Source: Candidatus Zhuqueibacterota bacterium (GTDB lineage: Bacteria; Zhuqueibacterota; Zhuqueibacteria; Oceanimicrobiales; Oceanimicrobiaceae). From it: a stretch of 58,411 nucleotides of DNA. The first letter of the stretch is position 1; each line of letters starts with the position of its first letter. The notes under the pieces are model-generated. The model was given only the letters and a program-made list of their open reading frames with translations. It had not been told where the DNA came from and did no database searches. Position numbers and translations under genes: made by a program. This document shows positions 195-10,545 of this stretch, one piece after another. The stretch covers positions 1-58,411 of the forward strand of contig JAJDAD010000022.1 in assembly GCA_029262055.1 (NCBI GenBank), read 5' to 3'.

Positions 195-2945
195 TTACTT
201 CATGAGAATCATCTTCTTAACCGAAGTAAATCCGTTCACCTGAATCCGGTAAAAGTAAACGCCGGAGCTCAGATTGGCAGAACCGACCGTCACTTCGTGT
301 TCACCGGGATCCATCGTCCGGTCGACCAGCGTCAGCACCTGGGCGCCGATGGCGTTGTACACAACCATTTTCACATGGCCGGATTCTTTCAGATCAAATC
401 TTATCCGGGTGGTTGGATTGAACGGGTTCGGATAGTTTTGCTGTAAAGCATAGCTTTCCGGAATCGCCGCACCCGAATGGACGGAAGTAACCAGCAGCGA
501 AAACTCATCTGAAAACTCGCTGCGGTTCTCTGAAAAATCAAACGCTGCGATACGGTAGAAATAGGTGCTTCCGACATCGACATTGTCATCGACAAAGGTG
601 TTTTCCGTCAACTCTGCCACCGGTTCTGTCGCAGTCGGATCAAAGCCGGCTGACGTGCCACGGTAAACTGCGAAGAAATCAAAATCGTCGTCAACCGCTT
701 CGTCCCAACCCAGCGCTATCCCGGCTTCTGTTTCGACACCGGCCAGACTGGTGGGTGCAGCGGGATTAAGATTGTCGATCGAATAGCCGGTGGCTGGTTC
801 GGTGACTGCATAAATCGCCGTGACGTTGGTATGTCCGGAGACCCGGAAAGTCGATAGTTTGACTCCGGACGCAGTGGAATCGTACAGCGTTGGGACAATC
901 GCGCTGTACTCGTCCTGCGTAGCTGCCGGAACTGAGCCAACAAAGTCCCACAACTCACCGTCCATCGCCAAACCTGCGCCAAGCTCGAGTCCCGCTACTT
1001 GCTCAGAACTGATATTTAAAGTCTCAAGCGTGTTCTTGTCGGCAGCAGTCCCAGCATCTTCAACCTTGCGCCAGACAGCGTACCTACGAACCGGATTCTC
1101 GCTGACGCCGTCGCCGCCAAACCTCTCCCAGGTGACACGTACTTGCTTGCCTTGATCATTTGGCACATCATCAACGCCAGTAACCGAGTTGGGAGACAGC
1201 ACACCGTACATGAGCGCTGCTTTGGAGAGCTTGAGTAATGCGACACTGAACTGATAGTTGTGCACGCCATGGCTGTGATCATTAGCCACTGCGAGCCAGT
1301 TAAATCCAGCCAACCGCAATGTCAGGGTCCCGCCCTCGTACCAAAGAGGACTGCGGATGTCGACAAAAGAAGTGTCAAACGGGGGCAGCAGCATACCGAC
1401 ATCATGCAGAAGCCCTTCGACCTCGGTGGTAGCAGCTTCGATGTTGCCGTCACCGTCATGATCCGCGCGTGCCAGGATATCTTCGAATGACGTCATTTCC
1501 GGGTCATGGCAGGCCTGACATGGCTCCACGTTGTCGAAGGTGGTCGTCACACCGTCGACGGTCTCGGTGGTGTGCATAGCCCAACTGTGGTCACCCAGAT
1601 CATCACGATCGTTTTCAGCCATGTGACAGCCGACGCAGGCATTCTCGACAACATCTTTGTGCGTGGAGTTGGGCAGGATCATACCAAATGCGGCAACGTG
1701 CCCACGCACGCCAAACAGCATATCGGTCTGGTTGCTATGGTGCGGGCCCCGGTAGGTTGAATGGAATTCCCTCGCGTATTGCTCAGCGCCCCCTTCACGA
1801 CGGTCTTTGTGGCAGCTCATACACAACTGGCCTGTGCCACCAAGGGTTATCGTTGCTCCGCTTGGCAGTTCGACCTCGCCGGGCAGGCGAAGTTGATGTT
1901 CATTGGTCGCGTCGTGCGGATCATGACACACCGCACAGGAGATGTTCTGATTGCCGGTCTTCAAATCCAGATCACTTGCCGGATCCATTCTGGCGATAAA
2001 TCCCCAACCACTGTGGCAAGGTGCGCAGGTTGAACTCGTGCCCCGCGCAAATGTAGTGCCGGTAGCATGCGCAGAGTTCTTCCATTGCGTGTTCTTGACA
2101 TGGTACGGCGCCTCTTCGTGACATCTGCCGCACGCACCCTCATCCAAGGAAAGCGCTATCTTTGACTTGTCGCCCTTGTGCAAACTGCCCGGGCCATGGC
2201 AGTTCTCGCATTGGATATTCGAGACTGCGGCCAGTGTCGGGAAATTAGTCACAAGATCATCCCAGTTGCCGGTCTGCAGTGTATCGGGGAATGTCCAACC
2301 TACCTGCTGTTGCACGTCCCAGAAGCCACCGTTAAATGTATCTTCGAAATAACCGACCGTATGGCACTCGACACAATTCTCATTGTAATGCGAGCTCTTC
2401 AAACCATCGATAGCTTCGGTAAACATGCTGGCATGCCCGGTCTCGCTCCAGGTCATTTCGTTGCCTGCATGACAGTCACCGCATTGTCCTAGGGGGAAAC
2501 TTATTGGCGTGGCGCCACCAATGGTCCCAACACCAACGTACTTGGCACTGGTGATGGTTACACTCTCGGTTGCCGTACCGCCATCGGTTGTGACCTCAAC
2601 TTGCACCTCAAACTGACCGGATGTATCCGGCTTAAAGGTCGTCCTCTGGGTCGCTGTACTGTCGAGTACAACCGTGGAACCGGTTGGCTGACTGGTAAAA
2701 TTCCAGGCAACAGCGGTTACTGTCGCGCCGGTCCCGTCTTCTGCAAACAAGTAGACCTGCTCGCCGACACCGACGACCTTTAGGCCGGTTGACGGGTGTG
2801 TGGTCCAGCCGAGGTCATGAATCTCTTGCGGACTCCAGGCCTCAACCACAATGGTAGCTACCGGCGGCACGAGTTGTGCCTGGATAGCAAACATACCCAA
2901 CAACAACAGCACCATAACACTAACAACTACTCTCAGATAACGCAT
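195..2945 (-). CDS. Secreted nine-heme cytochrome c with C-terminal sorting domain
   Basis: The 916-residue protein starts with a signal peptide (residues 1-23, ending IQAQ). An Ig/PKD-like beta region follows, then nine CXXCH heme-attachment motifs between about residues 155 and 478, from CGDCH to CQACH. Fibronectin III-like repeats come next, and the last ~85 residues form a FlgD-like/type IX sorting domain with the signature YALQQNYPNPFNP and a final KKMILMK. The heme region resembles cytochrome c554/paired-CXXCH families. The sorting domain suggests export across the outer membrane and attachment at the surface, so an extracellular electron-transfer role is likely (inferred). The start has a strong AGGAGG site six bases upstream. 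It is probably co-transcribed with the receiver gene just upstream and lies near a quinone-linked cytochrome operon. Its substrate cannot be read from sequence; a multiheme oxidoreductase is the alternative. Confidence 0.88.
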   Translation of the reverse strand: MRYLRVVVSVMVLLLLGMFAIQAQLVPPVATIVVEAWSPQEIHDLGWTTHPSTGLKVVGVGEQVYLFAEDGTGATVTAVAWNFTSQPTGSTVVLDSTATQRTTFKPDTSGQFEVQVEVTTDGGTATESVTITSAKYVGVGTIGGATPISFPLGQCGDCHAGNEMTWSETGHASMFTEAIDGLKSSHYNENCVECHTVGYFEDTFNGGFWDVQQQVGWTFPDTLQTGNWDDLVTNFPTLAAVSNIQCENCHGPGSLHKGDKSKIALSLDEGACGRCHEEAPYHVKNTQWKNSAHATGTTFARGTSSTCAPCHSGWGFIARMDPASDLDLKTGNQNISCAVCHDPHDATNEHQLRLPGEVELPSGATITLGGTGQLCMSCHKDRREGGAEQYAREFHSTYRGPHHSNQTDMLFGVRGHVAAFGMILPNSTHKDVVENACVGCHMAENDRDDLGDHSWAMHTTETVDGVTTTFDNVEPCQACHDPEMTSFEDILARADHDGDGNIEAATTEVEGLLHDVGMLLPPFDTSFVDIRSPLWYEGGTLTLRLAGFNWLAVANDHSHGVHNYQFSVALLKLSKAALMYGVLSPNSVTGVDDVPNDQGKQVRVTWERFGGDGVSENPVRRYAVWRKVEDAGTAADKNTLETLNISSEQVAGLELGAGLAMDGELWDFVGSVPAATQDEYSAIVPTLYDSTASGVKLSTFRVSGHTNVTAIYAVTEPATGYSIDNLNPAAPTSLAGVETEAGIALGWDEAVDDDFDFFAVYRGTSAGFDPTATEPVAELTENTFVDDNVDVGSTYFYRIAAFDFSENRSEFSDEFSLLVTSVHSGAAIPESYALQQNYPNPFNPTTRIRFDLKESGHVKMVVYNAIGAQVLTLVDRTMDPGEHEVTVGSANLSSGVYFYRIQVNGFTSVKKMILMK

Positions 2946-2975: not shown

Positions 2976-3356
2976 TTAGCGTAAAGACTGTGGAAGTTGT
3001 AAAACCGAACAAAAGACCTCTTTCAGCATTTTCTGGTCGATTGGCTTGACACAATAATGCGTCACGCCCTCTTGCAGGACTTTGCCACCGAGTTCCAAAT
3101 CCGTGTTTCTGGAAAGCACAACAATGGCGACTTTCGGCCTGATCATGCGAATAATCCTGACCATCTTGAGGCCGTCGGATCCACAGAATTCCAAATCGTA
3201 AATCACAAGCTGAAAGTCGCCATGCAATAACTCCAGCAGAAGATCGGCATCTTCATGGACCCGGTGGACGGATAGACCCTCTCGACACAGGAATGCTTGC
3301 AGATCAGACCTGCATTCATCATCACGACAAGCCAATAAAATCTTCTCATTCATCAT
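2976..3356 (-). CDS. Stand-alone response-regulator receiver protein
   Basis: A 126-residue single receiver domain with no output domain. Visible key residues are the acidic pair in CRDDE, the phospho-acceptor Asp in IYDLEF, Ser of VVLSRN in the switch position, and the conserved Lys of YCVKPI. The site GAGGAATTT precedes a double ATG. The gene is 30 bases upstream of the nine-heme cytochrome, so the two are likely one transcript, possibly from the -24/-12 sequence at 3457-3472. It probably acts as a phosphorelay intermediate or a protein-interaction switch; its partner kinase is unknown. Confidence 0.82.
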   Translation of the reverse strand: MMNEKILLACRDDECRSDLQAFLCREGLSVHRVHEDADLLLELLHGDFQLVIYDLEFCGSDGLKMVRIIRMIRPKVAIVVLSRNTDLELGGKVLQEGVTHYCVKPIDQKMLKEVFCSVLQLPQSLR

Positions 3357-3893: not shown

Positions 3894-5456
3894 TCACTCC
3901 TGGTGGCAGGCTTCGCATTCCTCCACTGCAAAAGCATCTGTGTCGTTGTGGCATTTTCCGCAGGAGCCGCCCTCGTACATTTCGTCCATTGTCACAGATT
4001 CAGTGTCGGGAACGCCGTCCTTCAGGATATCAAATGTACCAAAGTGGCAGACAGAGCACGCAGCTTCATCCTGTGACAAAACGTGGCTTTCATGGCTGAA
4101 GGTCACCGGACCCGGACTATCCTCACCTACCGGATAGTCAAAAGCCTCGGGCAAAACCAGCTCCGGTTCCACAGGTTCTGCGCGCAAAGGTGTCGCAGCA
4201 ATAGCGTTGCTCATCGAATCCAGTTTGTACCGACCATTCTTGCTCAAACCAAAAGTGATCACTCCAAGAATTACTACGGCCCAGGCGGCCAAAACGATAT
4301 TGCGCGTGAATATCGGCGGCCCGGCATCCTGCAACGCCGCCTTCCCCGATGCAGTTTCTTCGGGCGGGAAAACGTGAAAATGCTTGACCGCAAGTCCGAA
4401 GATCGTAAAGCCCAGCACAACCAGCGCCAGCGTCACCGCGATCTCGGTCCATTTCGGGAAATAGGTTTCCGAGTGCAACATGCCCGTAATGCTGACATTG
4501 AGCCGGTTGACAATAAATCCGATCACCACCAGCAGTGCGGAGAAAAACAGCCCCGATTCCCGCGTTCGAATCCGCTCCACATACAGCAGACACATCGGCA
4601 ACAAAACACCCAGTCCTATCTCGCCCCAGAACAGCACGCTTTCCTGATTGAATCTGAACATCAGCTCAGCTTGTCCGTGCCGAAACAGGTCCTGCACCCG
4701 GAAAACGAAATAGACTGCCAAAAGGACGACAATGACCCTGGCAAGTCCAGTCAGCAACTCCTTCTCCAAACGTTTCCCAAAAGCGCGGGCGCTCAGAAAT
4801 GATTCCACGATGGTCATGGCAATGCCGGCCGTGATAGCAGTAATGAAGAAAAATAGCGGTAAGAACGGCGAGTACCAAAGACCGTACAGCTTGTCCGGAA
4901 CAATAACGTAGAGAGTGCCCAGTGAAGACTGGTGCAAAGTAGAGAGCAGTACGCCTAAAATTACAACCGGCAGATAGATCGATCTAATGATGCGTAAAGG
5001 AGCTTTTAACCCAAACCTCTCAAGCACCATAGGACTGAATTCAAGTGCAAGAACGATTGTGTAAAGCGTCACGCACCAGGCCACCTCGAACATGACGGAG
5101 TGTGGGTTCCACATAATCAACGGGTGCCAAATACGATACGGTCGACCCAAATCAAACAGAATCGCCACCACCACGAGCACGTAGCCCAGAAAAGCAGTCA
5201 GTATCGCCGGACGACTGATGGGCTTATACTTCTCGAGGTTAAAGATGTGGACCGTTGCCGCTATCACGAACCCTCCCGCTGCCAGCCCAACCCCTACCAA
5301 AACATCAAACCCAATCCAAATACCCCAGGGAAATTGGTCGCTGAGATTTGTTGCCGCGCCAAGTCCTTGCGCAAAACGGACGACAGTTGCATACGCACCG
5401 CCGACAAACACCATGCCCGCAACTACTTTCCAAAAACTCAGGTTAGGCTTCTGCAT
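3894..5456 (-). CDS. HybB/NrfD-like quinone-interacting membrane subunit fused to a triheme cytochrome tail
   Basis: This 520-residue protein has two parts. Residues 1 to about 400 contain roughly ten hydrophobic segments of the HybB/NrfD (polysulfide-reductase) family, including the family-typical GRPYRIWHP stretch after the third helix. The last ~80 residues hold three CXXCH motifs (CSVCH, CGKCH, CEACH) and an FSHxxH segment that could give distal His ligands, as in c7-type triheme domains. HybB and NrfD proteins exchange electrons with menaquinone and pair with a four-cluster ferredoxin, here the gene immediately upstream. The fused triheme tail would let electrons pass directly between quinone site, ferredoxin and periplasmic cytochromes. 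Ordinary HybB proteins end after the membrane domain, so the fusion is notable. AAGGAGA lies just upstream of the ATG. Confidence 0.88.
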   Translation of the reverse strand: MQKPNLSFWKVVAGMVFVGGAYATVVRFAQGLGAATNLSDQFPWGIWIGFDVLVGVGLAAGGFVIAATVHIFNLEKYKPISRPAILTAFLGYVLVVVAILFDLGRPYRIWHPLIMWNPHSVMFEVAWCVTLYTIVLALEFSPMVLERFGLKAPLRIIRSIYLPVVILGVLLSTLHQSSLGTLYVIVPDKLYGLWYSPFLPLFFFITAITAGIAMTIVESFLSARAFGKRLEKELLTGLARVIVVLLAVYFVFRVQDLFRHGQAELMFRFNQESVLFWGEIGLGVLLPMCLLYVERIRTRESGLFFSALLVVIGFIVNRLNVSITGMLHSETYFPKWTEIAVTLALVVLGFTIFGLAVKHFHVFPPEETASGKAALQDAGPPIFTRNIVLAAWAVVILGVITFGLSKNGRYKLDSMSNAIAATPLRAEPVEPELVLPEAFDYPVGEDSPGPVTFSHESHVLSQDEAACSVCHFGTFDILKDGVPDTESVTMDEMYEGGSCGKCHNDTDAFAVEECEACHQE

Positions 5457-5540: not shown

Positions 5541-6320
5541 TCAATCTGGCTCGGCACCCAAAGCCTCTTCTTCGGTCAGCTCGCCGCTGCGTACCTTGTC
5601 CAGGGTTATTCGGCGATTGATTATCCACCAAATACCGAACATAGTTACTCCCCCGACGCTCACAATATTCGGTATGTGCGAAAGCACATTCCAAGTCAAT
5701 TTCGGATATGCAAGGTCGGCTTGCATATACTTGAAACCCAATTCCTCAAATGGAACATCAGACAGATAAAGCACCGATGTTCCACCAGCCTCGTGGATAC
5801 CGTAAATGTGGTCAAAATACAGGCCCGGGTTTTCTTGAATACGATGTTTGGCCACATCGAGCAGTTCATCCCTTTCTCCGAATATTGTCGCCCCAGCGGG
5901 ACAAACTGAGGTGCAGGCTGGCTGTTCACCTTTCCTTACCCGGTTGTCGTAACACATGATGCATTTTTGGACTTTCGGCAGAACGGAATCCCATTCGTAT
6001 TTCGGGACCTCAAAAGGACAAGCCATGATGCAATAGCGACAGCCCATGCACCTGTCTTCATGGTAGATAACCGGACCTTGTTCGGTTTTCTCGAGCGCAC
6101 CTACCGGGCAGACTGAAACACAGGTCGGATCCAGACAATGCATGCACTGGCGGCGGATGTTAATGCCGCCTTTGCGGTCTATCGCCGTCCAGGTTGTAGA
6201 GGTAAGTTGACTGCCTGGTTTCGATGCCGGTAAATTGTTTATCTCCCTGCATGCAGACACGCAGGCCTCACAACCAATACACCTGGTCAAATCCGTAAGG
6301 ATTCCGACACTCATGCCCAA
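5541..6320 (-). CDS. HybA/NrfC-like four-cluster ferredoxin with membrane anchor
   Basis: A 259-residue iron-sulfur protein with four Cys clusters in the DmsB/NrfC/HybA order: CIGCEACVSAC, CMHCLDPTCVSVCPVGA, CMGCRYCIMACPFEVP, and CIMCYDN...CTSVCPAG. A C-terminal hydrophobic helix (about residues 215-240, IPNIVSVGGVTMFGIWWII) anchors it in the membrane, as in HybA. It would wire the HybB-like subunit downstream (84 bases away) to a redox partner. No Tat signal is evident at the N-terminus, so the side of the membrane is uncertain. GGAG lies nine bases before the start. Confidence 0.88.
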   Translation of the reverse strand: MGMSVGILTDLTRCIGCEACVSACREINNLPASKPGSQLTSTTWTAIDRKGGINIRRQCMHCLDPTCVSVCPVGALEKTEQGPVIYHEDRCMGCRYCIMACPFEVPKYEWDSVLPKVQKCIMCYDNRVRKGEQPACTSVCPAGATIFGERDELLDVAKHRIQENPGLYFDHIYGIHEAGGTSVLYLSDVPFEELGFKYMQADLAYPKLTWNVLSHIPNIVSVGGVTMFGIWWIINRRITLDKVRSGELTEEEALGAEPD

Positions 6321-6343: not shown

Positions 6344-7510
6344 TTAGTTCTTTTGCAGGAACGATCTCGAAAAGGCTTCCCAGTCGTGGCCATTCACATC
6401 AGCCACTGTCTCTTGTTCGCTGCCATTGCTCTCTTCCCTGGATCCGCGCTCTTCGGCGGAAATGTTCCGGACCGCTTCCATGAATTTGTCGACTTCTTTC
6501 TGATACCAGCTTACCGCGTTCGCACCAATACGCAGGCCGCGTAAATCCGTGGCCAGATCCGCTGCCTCCACACGACAGAGCCACCCAAGTTCATAAGGCT
6601 TCATATTCAGCAACTCGATATGCTCTTTGATTTCAGAATTGACTGTCCGGACTATGCCGCTAATCGGCGAGGGGAAGGGCAAGGTTCGGCCAGCCTGTAC
6701 CAGAGTGAAGACAGGAGCGCCTTTCTTGATCTTTTGCCCGCTCTTGGGCAGGAGAATCTCGTCGATGCTCCCGACCAGCTTTTGCGCCAGATCATCGAGG
6801 CCAATCCGGACGGACCCATCCATTTCGAGGCCAACCCAGGTGTGTTCCGGCGCGATGAACAAGCCCGCCGGCACATTGAAAACGTGCTCAGACTGTGTTT
6901 CGCCTGATGTTGCGGTAATCAGGTGTATCTTCGGCCGTCTCCCTCTTTCAAGTCGATCTTGCCGCCGGATCCATGATTTGTTCACAAACGCCACCAGCTC
7001 ATCTTCGGTGAACGGCTTCTGCACATAGTCCAGAGCACCATATTTCATTGCCTCCACCGCGGATTCAATCGTCGCGTAACCGGTAATCATAATGACATCG
7101 ATATCCGGACGTAAGTGCTTGACAGCCTTGGTCACATCGAGGCCGTCCATTTCGGGCATTTTCAGGTCGGTAAAAACAAAGTCGTAGTCATATTGTTTTA
7201 TCAGATTCAGGGCCTCGGGGCCGGTCTCAACCGTGTCAATCCCGTAGCCGGCGAGGACCAGAATTTTACGAAAACTGTCCAGGACAATCGCCTCATCGTC
7301 GACAGCCAGAATAGTGGCCTTAGGATCTGACACAACCACACGTTTCAGGCTTTTTGCTTCTTCGGCGAAATCCAGCTTCAGGCCAACATCAAGTGCAGCC
7401 GCCCGTTCTCTTCGGGCCTTGTTTTCACGAAACCGGTGAGAAGCAACACGCACCAGGACATCTGCCGTGATGAACACAACGATCATAAAGACAACTAGCA
7501 GCGCAACCAT
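6344..7510 (-). CDS. Membrane-anchored response regulator with GcvH-like output domain
   Basis: A 388-residue protein with an unusual domain order. An N-terminal membrane helix (residues 1-20) is followed by a complete receiver domain (about 66-185; Asp71-Asp72, phospho-acceptor Asp115, Thr143, Lys165) and a glycine-cleavage H-protein-like biotinyl/lipoyl fold (about 215-315). The H-protein hallmark PEHTW (221-225) and a SPISGIV turn are present. The ESVKA segment that carries the lipoyl lysine in GcvH reads LVQAGRTL here, so no lysine is available and classical lipoylation is unlikely. A polar tail ends the protein. It lies between the sensor kinase and HybA genes, 19 bases from the kinase. 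The output mechanism is unknown; it may control the redox complex by protein contact. Confidence 0.85.
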   Translation of the reverse strand: MVALLVVFMIVVFITADVLVRVASHRFRENKARRERAAALDVGLKLDFAEEAKSLKRVVVSDPKATILAVDDEAIVLDSFRKILVLAGYGIDTVETGPEALNLIKQYDYDFVFTDLKMPEMDGLDVTKAVKHLRPDIDVIMITGYATIESAVEAMKYGALDYVQKPFTEDELVAFVNKSWIRRQDRLERGRRPKIHLITATSGETQSEHVFNVPAGLFIAPEHTWVGLEMDGSVRIGLDDLAQKLVGSIDEILLPKSGQKIKKGAPVFTLVQAGRTLPFPSPISGIVRTVNSEIKEHIELLNMKPYELGWLCRVEAADLATDLRGLRIGANAVSWYQKEVDKFMEAVRNISAEERGSREESNGSEQETVADVNGHDWEAFSRSFLQKN

Positions 7511-7529: not shown

Positions 7530-9101
7530 TTAAGTTCCGGTTTCGGCCACTGGCTTTCCCGCACCCTGCTGGGAAGCGCAACTCGATGCATCAGACAGGA
7601 CTGCGCCAGTAGCCACTGGTAATCTCAAAGTAAATAGAGTTCCCTCCCCTACTTCGCTCGTCACGTCTATCTTCCCACCGTGTTTTTCGACTATGCCCCA
7701 CACCACTGACAGGCCTAGACCGTTGCCCTTCTGACCTTTGGTGGTGTAAAAGGGCTCGAATATCTTGCTGAGTTCTTCTTTCTTAATGCCGCAGCCGTTA
7801 TCCGACACCTGCGTTATCACATATTGTTTTTCACCGACGTCTTCTGTCCGGGTCGCAATCTTGATACTGCCACCGCTCTTGCCAATTGCGTCCGCAGCGT
7901 TCACCAGGAGATTAATCATCACCTGCTGGATCTGATTTGTATCCGCGTAAATGGGCGGCAACCCCTGCTCGAAGTCCACCTGGACGACAATATCTCTGGC
8001 TTGGAATTGACTGGCGACGATACCGACGGTCCGGCGGAGAGCTTCGTTCAGGTCAATGCTGGCCTTTTCGGGGGAAACAGGTCTGGCAAAATCCAACAGC
8101 CCTTTGACTATTTCGCGGCAACGCTTGGTTTCGCGAACGATCACTTCCAGATCTGCGGTGACTTCAGGATTGTTTGTGTTTCTCTTGAGCAGAAAACTAC
8201 TGTAGCTCAGAACTCCGGTCAGCGGGTTATTGATCTCGTGGGCAACTCCCGCCGCCAACCGGCCGATTGAAGACAGTTTATCGGATTGATATACCTGTCT
8301 TTGTGCTTCCGAGAGCTTGCCCGTCATGTCGTTAAAGGCAGCGGCCAACTGACCTATCTCGTCTCTCCTTTTGACCGGAATCTTGTAGCTGAGATTGCCG
8401 GCGGCGACCCGATTGGTGGCGTCCACAAGCTGCTTTACCGGCTTGCCGACCAGGGTCTGTACCAGATAGGCGAGCAAGAGACTAATGGACAGGATTGCAG
8501 TTATCGCAAAAATGACCATCTCGGCCTTATTCGATGCGATTTGCTGCTCCACTTCCGCGAGAGAAAGCGTTACATCTAAGACGCCCAGTACCCTTTGACT
8601 CGCTTTGTGGGCGTGACAAGGAGCCTGCCAACAACCCGGTTCGTTGTTTATGGGGTTGATGATGCCAAAATCCCTATGTCCCGCCGCAGTCGCAAACGTC
8701 CTGGTGCGTTCATTCATGCTCAGACTTGTCAGAGGCTGGTCCGAAGTGTGGCAGGCATAGCAGGACTCGGCGGCCTTATCCACCATTTGTCCAATCTCGT
8801 CCTTGTCCGAAGAATAGTTGATTCTGCCTTCCTTGTTGAAGATGCGAATCTTCTCAATCCCCTCCTGGCGACCAATGGTGTCGATGATCCTGTGGATATG
8901 GTCTCTCTGATTCAGCATCATTTCATAGCGCGTACTGCTCTTGACAGTCTCGCTAAGCTGATTGGCGTTGTGGTCGATTTGGGTAAGTAAAGCTTTCTGC
9001 TGGGAAGCAGTAGTGATGAAGGCAAACACCAGGATACCGGCGATTGCAACAACTCCCACCGTAAGAATTAACTTGGAGCTAACGCGATACCTGATAGACA
9101 T
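7530..9101 (-). CDS. Sensor histidine kinase with c-type heme sites in its periplasmic domain
   Basis: A 523-residue kinase: helix 1 (about 10-30), periplasmic sensor (31-195), helix 2 (196-215), HAMP (about 215-265), HisKA with phospho-acceptor His288 in AGVAHEINNPL, and HATPase with N-box (NLLVNAADAI), DNGCGI and GLGLS motifs. The sensor contains CYACH (114-118), a standard heme c attachment motif, and CWQAPCH (157-163), a CX4CH variant known from some c3 cytochromes. Two covalently bound hemes would make it a redox or gas sensor. It is followed by the receiver/GcvH protein and preceded by an NtrC-type regulator, probably its cognate partner (inferred). Its place inside the cytochrome operon suggests feedback on electron flux. 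Confidence 0.88.
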   Translation of the reverse strand: MSIRYRVSSKLILTVGVVAIAGILVFAFITTASQQKALLTQIDHNANQLSETVKSSTRYEMMLNQRDHIHRIIDTIGRQEGIEKIRIFNKEGRINYSSDKDEIGQMVDKAAESCYACHTSDQPLTSLSMNERTRTFATAAGHRDFGIINPINNEPGCWQAPCHAHKASQRVLGVLDVTLSLAEVEQQIASNKAEMVIFAITAILSISLLLAYLVQTLVGKPVKQLVDATNRVAAGNLSYKIPVKRRDEIGQLAAAFNDMTGKLSEAQRQVYQSDKLSSIGRLAAGVAHEINNPLTGVLSYSSFLLKRNTNNPEVTADLEVIVRETKRCREIVKGLLDFARPVSPEKASIDLNEALRRTVGIVASQFQARDIVVQVDFEQGLPPIYADTNQIQQVMINLLVNAADAIGKSGGSIKIATRTEDVGEKQYVITQVSDNGCGIKKEELSKIFEPFYTTKGQKGNGLGLSVVWGIVEKHGGKIDVTSEVGEGTLFTLRLPVATGAVLSDASSCASQQGAGKPVAETGT

Positions 9102-9138: not shown

Positions 9139-10545
9139 TTACATATCACTGGTTTGCTTCCAATTACGGGAATGGAGGTGGTGTCGGCTGATCAAGCGAT
9201 GGAAAGTCCGGCGGTCTATTCCACTATCTTCTGCCGCTTGCGTGACATTGCCGTTGTGGCGGGACAACATGCGGACAATGTACTCTTTTTCAAAGCGTGA
9301 GACAACGCGGTCTTTGGCTTCTTTCAATGGCAAATCGAGACCGATGACATGGCCGTTTTGCGGCATACAGGTGACGTTCTCCGGTAGGGCTTGCACGCCG
9401 ATCCAGGGTTCGGTGGTGAGTGTTATTGCGCGCTCTACAACGTTTTCGAGCTCCCTGATGTTCCCGGGCCAGTTGTACTTTTCGAGACAGCGAAGAGCAT
9501 TCTCGGTAAATCCGTTGATTGTCTTGGGCGTCAGTTTCGCATATTTGGTGATGAAGTGACGGCACAGGAGGGGCAGATCCTCTTTTCTTTCCCGTAGCGG
9601 TGGCAAATGGATGGAAATGACATTTAAACGATAATAAAGGTCTTCTCTTAAGCTTTGCTCAGTGACAGCCTCTTCGAGATTGCGGTTTGAGGCTGAGATA
9701 ATTCGGACGTCAATATCGATTTCGTCCGTGCCTCCGACCCGCCTGATCCTCCTGTCCTGCAGCATGCGCAGTAACTTGACCTGGAGTGGCAAGGTCAGTT
9801 CGCAGATTTCATCGAGAAAAAAAGTCCCACGGTTCGCAAACTCCAGGAGTCCGGGCTTGCGACGATAAGCGCCGGTAAAAGCGCCTTTTTCGTACCCAAA
9901 CAACTCACTCTCGAACAGATGTTCGGGGAAGGCACCGCAGTTGACCGGTACAAACGGCTTGGCTTTGCGCAGGCTGTGATTGTGGATGGCCCGTGCCACA
10001 AGCTCTTTGCCTGTGCCACTTTCCCCGGTAACAGTGACATTGGTCTCGCCATCTGCCACCCTCGAAATCAACTCAAAGACCGGACGCATGGTTGCGCTCC
10101 GCCCGATGATGTCGTCAAACCCGAAATGGTGCTGGAGCTGATCCTTCAGAAACTTCTTTTCCTTATGCAAGCCGCGATGCTGCAGAGATTTTTCAACGAC
10201 TACCCGTAACCGTTCAGCACGGAAGGGCTTCTCTACAAAGTCGAATGCACCGTCGCGCATGGCAGACACCACGCTTTCCGCATTGCCATAAGCACTGAAG
10301 ATCACAAATGGGGTCTCGGGCGCCTTGGTTCGGGCCTCACGCAACAAATCCATACCGTCGACACCCGGCATGGCTAAGTCACTTATGATCAGGTCGTATT
10401 CCTCGGATTGAATGGTCGTCAAAGCGTGGTTACTGTCACTGAGGGTTTCTACGTCGTAAGTCCCGTTGGAGCGCAGCGCCTTGGCACAACTGAGGAGGAG
10501 GTCGACATCATCATCGACGATTAAGATTCTGTACTTTTCTGTCAT
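9139..10545 (-). CDS. Sigma-54-dependent NtrC-family response regulator
   Basis: A 468-residue protein with an N-terminal receiver (IVDDDVD, phospho-acceptor in IISDLAMPG, Lys in FVEKPF), AAA+ domain with Walker A GESGTGKE, intact sigma-54 contact loop GAFTGA and FFLDEI, and a Fis-type helix-turn-helix at the end (GNVTQAAEDSGIDRRTFHR). It should activate -24/-12 promoters after phosphorylation, most likely by the heme-binding kinase encoded 37 bases downstream. Plausible targets are the sigma-54-like sites ahead of the cytochrome genes in this window (inferred). Confidence 0.93.
   Translation of the reverse strand: MTEKYRILIVDDDVDLLLSCAKALRSNGTYDVETLSDSNHALTTIQSEEYDLIISDLAMPGVDGMDLLREARTKAPETPFVIFSAYGNAESVVSAMRDGAFDFVEKPFRAERLRVVVEKSLQHRGLHKEKKFLKDQLQHHFGFDDIIGRSATMRPVFELISRVADGETNVTVTGESGTGKELVARAIHNHSLRKAKPFVPVNCGAFPEHLFESELFGYEKGAFTGAYRRKPGLLEFANRGTFFLDEICELTLPLQVKLLRMLQDRRIRRVGGTDEIDIDVRIISASNRNLEEAVTEQSLREDLYYRLNVISIHLPPLRERKEDLPLLCRHFITKYAKLTPKTINGFTENALRCLEKYNWPGNIRELENVVERAITLTTEPWIGVQALPENVTCMPQNGHVIGLDLPLKEAKDRVVSRFEKEYIVRMLSRHNGNVTQAAEDSGIDRRTFHRLISRHHLHSRNWKQTSDM

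Follow-up and report, generated by a model that had tools for sequence, protein, structure and literature searches.

The gene at positions 6344..7510 of the DNA analyzed here encodes a membrane-anchored response regulator whose output half is an H-protein fold that has lost its lipoyl lysine. This DNA, the window, is a stretch of 58,411 nucleotides from a Candidatus Zhuqueibacterota bacterium (contig JAJDAD010000022.1 of assembly GCA_029262055.1). We give about an even chance to the reading that this fold, no longer lipoylated, now serves as a docking module for NrfD-type (HybAB/Hmc-like) quinone-redox complexes and is controlled by phosphorylation. The genes lie beside those for a kinase with heme motifs and for a membrane electron-transfer complex, so the regulator probably lets the cell adjust this complex by phosphorylation. 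Its output domain is apparently undescribed among response regulators and comes from a likewise undescribed family of lysine-less H-folds.

Table 1. Features of the regulator and its gene cluster in the window.
Feature	Position	Strand	Evidence
TM-REC-GcvH-like response regulator, 388 aa	6344..7510	-	ORF; Pfam; AlphaFold2/Foldseek
N-terminal transmembrane (TM) helix, residues 1-22, near-invariant Asp17 and Arg21	7445..7510	-	column counts
Receiver (REC), residues 67-176, phospho-acceptor Asp115	6983..7312	-	Pfam Response_reg 6.9e-30
H-protein-like (GCV_H) domain, residues 221-324	6539..6850	-	Pfam 1.4e-20; Foldseek TM 0.89
Hairpin VQAGRT, residues 271-276, at the lipoyl-Lys site of GcvH	6683..6700	-	alignment with the same genome's canonical GcvH
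Gly274, the lipoyl-Lys position	6689-6691	-	alignment with the same genome's canonical GcvH
C-terminal helix plus tail (residues 329-388), with homology to the end of receiver-less TM-GcvH	6347..6526	-	hhalign
Sensor histidine kinase; periplasmic CXXCH (CYACH) and CX4CH (CWQAPCH), HAMP, HisKA, HATPase	7530..9101	-	Pfam
HybA/HmcB-like 4Fe-4S subunit without Tat signal	5541..6320	-	NCBIfam HmcB 2e-71, HybA 3e-64, both below cut-off
HybB/HmcC-like NrfD membrane subunit with C-terminal c7-type triheme domain	3894..5456	-	Pfam NrfD 1e-29, Cytochrome_C7 4e-13
NtrC-type sigma-54 activator response regulator	9139..10545	-	Pfam Sigma54_activat 4e-69, Response_reg, HTH_8
Stand-alone receiver, 126 aa, cluster end	2976..3356	-	Pfam 3.4e-13
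Multiheme cytochrome with secretion-sorting tail	195..2945	-	Pfam

The receiver is intact and tethered to the membrane

Only Response_reg and GCV_H scored above the Pfam cut-offs in the regulator, and no helix-turn-helix or other DNA-binding output domain was found at these cut-offs. The hydrophobic N-terminal helix is followed by basic residues, from which we read the C-terminal part as cytoplasmic. Within the helix, D17 is kept in 80 of the 81 first-aligned homologues and R21 in all of them. The acidic pair of the receiver (D71 and D72) and residues D115, T143 and K165 are invariant in the same 81 proteins, and the receiver is therefore chemically intact throughout the aligned family. This complete active site and a kinase gene 19 nt upstream mark the window protein as part of a two-component system. 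The original prediction of a membrane-tethered receiver was thus confirmed.

The H-protein fold is kept and its lipoyl lysine is lost

An AlphaFold2 model of the whole regulator was built on 41 homologues. Its mean pLDDT was 83, with the blocks of the H-domain mostly at 87-95, while the pTM of 0.53 leaves the placement of the domains relative to one another uncertain. The best Foldseek matches for the H-domain were Escherichia coli H-protein structures (3a8i_E, TM score by target 0.89, 1.7 Å, 29% identity), and CheY-like chains were matched by the receiver part. The fold proposed from the letters was therefore obtained by structure prediction. The motifs are also where they had been read: PEHTW occupies residues 221-225, SPISG residues 281-285 and the altered lysine segment VQAGRTL residues 271-277. 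The lipoyl-lysine position was placed eight residues before the conserved Pro282 of SPISG, which gives Gly274.

This position is unconstrained. Among the 81 first-aligned proteins it holds N, S, T, G, D, K, Q, E, A and others, and of the 95 proteins with the full architecture only 8 have a lysine here and none has E-x-V-K. The loss claimed for a single protein is thus family-wide. Elsewhere in the H-fold conservation is strict: no variation was seen at H223, W225, G232, G237, D239, D240, K244, P255, P282 or G285, and almost none at N291, W310 or C312. A simple pseudogene or decay was rejected, because many core positions, like the receiver, do not change from phylum to phylum. On the NCBIfam GcvH model NF002270 the regulator scored 66.9 bits, below the cut-off of 117, and the best matches listed included no NCBIfam model for the TM-REC-GcvH family. 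The near-invariant Cys312 (about 6575-6577, minus strand; 93 of 95) was seen in TM-REC-GcvH proteins only.

Could the cofactor sit on another lysine? Lys244 is invariant in 95 of 95 proteins and a lysine stands at residue 271 in 49 of 81, so the domain might still be a lipoyl carrier. Lipoylating enzymes need their target lysine at the hairpin tip. In the model Lys244 would lie on a helix and residue 271 inside a strand, neither of them at the tip; position 274 varies freely, and residue 271 of the window protein is a valine. Lipoylation at either residue was rejected, since on the model both are in the wrong place in the fold, and we consider a retained carrier function very improbable. Lysine-less forms often carry Lys or Arg at position 244, and lysine-bearing GcvH carries neither there, its top residues being S, G, N and E. 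Position 244 is therefore a candidate for a new contact surface.

The architecture forms a family that spans several phyla

A search of GTDB genomes gave 157 confirmed relatives. The best 80 of these, which are those most similar to the query, come mostly from metagenome-assembled genomes (MAGs) that span, by their record titles, KSB1, Gemmatimonadota, Cloacimonadota, Spirochaetota, Pseudomonadota, Acidobacteriota, Bacteroidota/Ignavibacteriota, Desulfobacterota and Elusimicrobiota. The cultured Stygiobacter electus is also among their sources. Altogether 95 TM-REC-GcvH proteins from about nine phyla were recovered, a few of them from one genome counted twice. The homologues are thus not independent, and several loci represent one genome from two collections (for example L004/L106, L006/L108 and L007/L111). 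In its own phylum the regulator is present in 17 of 82 genomes. The search for the same architecture and its neighbors therefore revealed a large multi-phylum family, for which no characterization was found in the open literature searched. The protein is thus no lone oddity: it has this family, a soluble paralogue and receiver-less membrane kin.

The genes are linked to a kinase, HybA and NrfD

In the direction of transcription the window cluster encodes the NtrC-type regulator, the kinase, TM-REC-GcvH, the HybA-like subunit, the HybB/NrfD-c7 subunit, the 126-aa receiver and the multiheme cytochrome. The gap from the regulator gene to the HybA-like gene is 23 nt. In NCBIfam the HybB/NrfD-c7 product matched HmcC below cut-off (4e-95) and nanowire_3heme above it. 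For 42 homologue loci the flanks reach 7 kb or more on either side. In these, NrfD was found within 7 kb on the same strand in 39, HybA in 38 and a kinase in 41, which leaves three loci without such an NrfD gene. Of the six NrfD loci and three GcvH loci in the window's own genome, only the window pair coincide. The NtrC-type regulator is probably the second partner of the kinase, and it is absent from the clusters of most relatives. A sigma-54 promoter scan gave 38 matches against 37.9 expected and thus carries no information.

This linkage, and the homology of the output half to receiver-less TM-GcvH proteins, suggest that the H-fold may dock on the NrfD complex; the linkage could also mean shared regulation only. 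Of the phosphorylation-controlled docking module of the original prediction, the idea of a phosphorylation-controlled module is well supported by the invariant receiver, the family-wide loss of the lysine and the linked kinase, HybA and NrfD genes, and docking is suggested by linkage and homology.

The retained GcvH fold, with several core residues, would also suit a GcvH mimic, a lysine-less domain that docks on and regulates enzymes of lipoate or 2-oxoacid metabolism (GcvP/GcvT, dihydrolipoamide dehydrogenase, lipoate ligase). Among the annotated neighbors, which are redox membrane complexes or hydrogenase, no genes for glycine cleavage or lipoate were found, and a separate canonical GcvH is encoded in the same genome. 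We think this reading improbable. The third GcvH-like protein of that genome (L003:1429-1887, G000 contig C109) keeps a lysine (VEGFKAL), and its gene lies between genes that we read from their sequences as cysteine-desulfurase-like and CobW-like GTPase genes.

The output half resembles receiver-less membrane proteins

Receiver-less relatives were found by a GCV_H search in 40 related genomes and subsequent reading of the loci. These TM-GcvH proteins have 208-236 aa and are often encoded as two in tandem beside HybA and NrfD/HybB. HybA and NrfD genes lie near 15 of the 18 receiver-less TM-GcvH genes versus none of the 22 lysine-bearing GcvH-type genes, most of which are on short stretches, with full flanks in 2. 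E-x-V-K is absent from the receiver-less NrfD-adjacent GcvH-like proteins, and a bare K occurs at the aligned site in 2 of the 18 TM-GcvH proteins. Their loci (L092-L097, L116-L118) are mostly beside HybA/NrfD, and an invariant DGG was seen in the C-terminal tail.

The window family aligned to receiver-less TM-GcvH by hhalign (100%, E 2e-47) from the H-fold through the long helix to the C-terminus. This result supersedes the weak matches of a tail-only HMM to the receiver-less relatives (E 0.008 and 0.03). These proteins are the closest relatives of the output half. Their N-terminal helices also resemble that of the regulator (MV.LFVV..I..FI..D....R). Both likenesses make the regulator look like a TM-GcvH protein that has gained a receiver between its anchor and its H-fold.

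A maximum-likelihood tree was computed from 108 H-domains over 134 columns, and its resolution is accordingly limited. The TM-REC H-domains formed a 99/92 clade (27 rows plus the long ORF L073, which had been binned as soluble), inside a larger group (96/98) that also contains the receiver-less proteins linked to NrfD. The lysine-bearing GcvH/LbpA-like proteins and a clade of soluble REC-GcvH proteins fell on the other side. Receivers may thus have been acquired by fusion on two occasions.

A third GcvH-like type has a Cys-rich N-terminus before the GcvH domain and is encoded after HybB or in Qrc-like clusters, where QrcD scored above and a QrcB-like protein below the NCBIfam cut-off. Its loci are L094:7565-8383, L093:9471-10247, L092:6601-7437 and L098:6534-7538. 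The Cys-rich segment (C..MxAGI...KLCDR...C..CP) is without a Pfam match and may be a metal site. In the receiver-less TM-GcvH clusters the gene after NtrC encodes a metalloprotease-like protein of the archaemetzincin family (L094:11681-12217, L092, L093, L096).

These relatives bear on two further explanations. The regulator might serve signaling only: tethered to the membrane, it would drain phosphate or act as a branch point and so tune the kinase-NtrC pathway. The H-fold would then bind the kinase or keep the protein in a signaling cluster, and the HybA/NrfD link would be regulatory only, with the kinase controlling their transcription. The nearly constant kinase, the NtrC-type gene that immediately precedes it in the window and the lack of a DNA-binding domain in the regulator all fit. 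NtrC is missing from most relatives' clusters, however, and the nearest kin stay beside HybA/NrfD even without a receiver, so that the H-fold has a role there that is independent of phosphotransfer. We consider signaling alone unlikely. Slightly less likely still is an assembly factor, an H-fold protein that builds or inserts a HybAB/Qrc-like complex, with phosphorylation setting the amount assembled and not its turnover. Tandem TM-GcvH genes directly before HybA and Cys-rich GcvH-like genes after HybB in the receiver-less clusters agree with this, as does the conserved Asp in the membrane segment, but an invariant receiver and a dedicated redox-type kinase suit dynamic control better, and most NrfD complexes, including five others in the same genome, do without such a protein.

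A soluble REC-GcvH paralogue accompanies most relatives

In most relatives a second protein is encoded between the kinase and the TM-REC-GcvH gene. It is soluble, has 245-297 aa and carries Response_reg and GCV_H by Pfam; examples are L043:9127-9912, L024:9180-9965 and L035:9135-9941, with 66 others. A lysine is at the lipoyl position in 1 of these 69 proteins, and E-x-V-K in none. The direct upstream neighbor of the TM-REC-GcvH gene is soluble REC-GcvH in 59 loci and the kinase in 11. The window and its own genome have no soluble REC-GcvH, as a paralogue search found both domains in the window protein only.

No NrfD gene was found in genomes G008, G013 and G018, which carry soluble REC-GcvH, and the same holds for the genus g8. 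In these three genomes the protein adjoins a Cache-domain kinase and a hydrogenase/sulfhydrogenase operon of group-3-type [NiFe] hydrogenase, with large, small, FeS and flavin subunits and a maturation protease (loci L114:7956-15178 and L115). The tie of lysine-less REC-GcvH to redox enzymes is thus broader than NrfD alone.

The kinase sensor and the candidate partner subunit

The first 260 aa of the relatives' kinases contain exactly one CXXCH and one CX4CH motif in 79 of 79 cases, and the kinase may bind heme through these c-type motifs. The sensor weakly resembles, below cut-off, the Mcp40H-20 family, which is named after a methyl-accepting chemotaxis transducer. The kinases of Ignavibacteria loci (L043:7259-9130) exceed the window kinase by about 100 aa and have a CxxC...CxxC zinc-ribbon-like insert in the ATPase domain.

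HybA and HybB had both been named as proteins to test for binding. A Tat signal is present on HybA in 58 of 76 relatives and absent from 18, including the window. HybA is thus periplasmic in most relatives, where a cytoplasmic H-fold cannot touch it. This weakens HybA as a universal partner and makes NrfD/HybB the better candidate. Because the side of HybA varies, a single fixed partner surface is not assured. The window HybA-like protein (5541-6320) lacks the signal, so that in this lineage the iron-sulfur domain may be on the cytoplasmic side.

Proposed mechanism and its meaning

In the docking model that we favor, the neighboring kinase would read the redox state of the periplasmic cytochrome chain through its periplasmic sensor with c-type heme motifs, and would phosphorylate Asp115 of the receiver. 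As the receiver sits between the TM helix and the H-fold, phosphorylation would move the H-fold and tail, or change how accessible they are, at the cytoplasmic face of the NrfD membrane subunit, and electron or proton flow through the complex would be raised or lowered without new transcription. More tentatively, and with rather more doubt than belief, we suggest that lysine-less H-fold proteins are cytoplasmic accessory subunits of NrfD-type quinone-redox complexes and that the receiver inserted in this branch lets a redox-sensing kinase switch the complex post-translationally, which would be an undescribed class of respiratory control.

Two-component systems are nearly always taken to lead to transcription, second messengers or motility, and the H-protein fold is known as a lipoyl carrier. 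Direct action of a widespread regulator on a membrane respiratory complex would, if true, give bacteria a rapid redox control of quinone and extracellular electron transfer, in lineages whose wiring of this kind is poorly known. The family, with its several architectures, also shows an exaptation of the H-protein fold as a protein module, and annotations of 'glycine cleavage H' are misleading in genomes with lysine-less H-folds.

Comparison with known systems

No protein with a receiver and GcvH was found in the open literature searched, a scope outside which the Galperin 2006/2010 output-domain reviews lie, and a term search of signaling surveys gave no mention of an H-fold output domain. The claim that this output domain is undescribed thus holds within that literature, with priority unproven.

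The neighbors of the regulator are HybA- and HybB/HmcC-like, as in HybAB/HmcBC/Qrc-type NrfD complexes, and Qrc-like clusters also carry GcvH-like genes; we know of no described HybAB, Hmc or Qrc complex with a GcvH-like or receiver subunit. With the contact-acting response regulators of the CheY/CheV type the regulator shares an intact receiver and the lack of a DNA-binding domain, and it differs from them by its membrane anchor and H-fold output domain. It shares with GcvH (PF01597) the fold and the HxW, SPxSG and GW motifs, whereas it lacks the lipoyl lysine and E-x-V-K, carries a fused TM helix and receiver and falls below the NCBIfam cut-off. LbpA, the lipoate-binding H-like protein of sHdr sulfur oxidation, has a strictly conserved lipoyl lysine (PMC6067878). 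Like LbpA, the regulator is an H-like protein that would serve a redox enzyme system instead of glycine cleavage. Unlike LbpA, it is without the lysine, and in place of an hdr-like cluster its neighbors are the kinase, HybA, NrfD and multiheme cytochromes.
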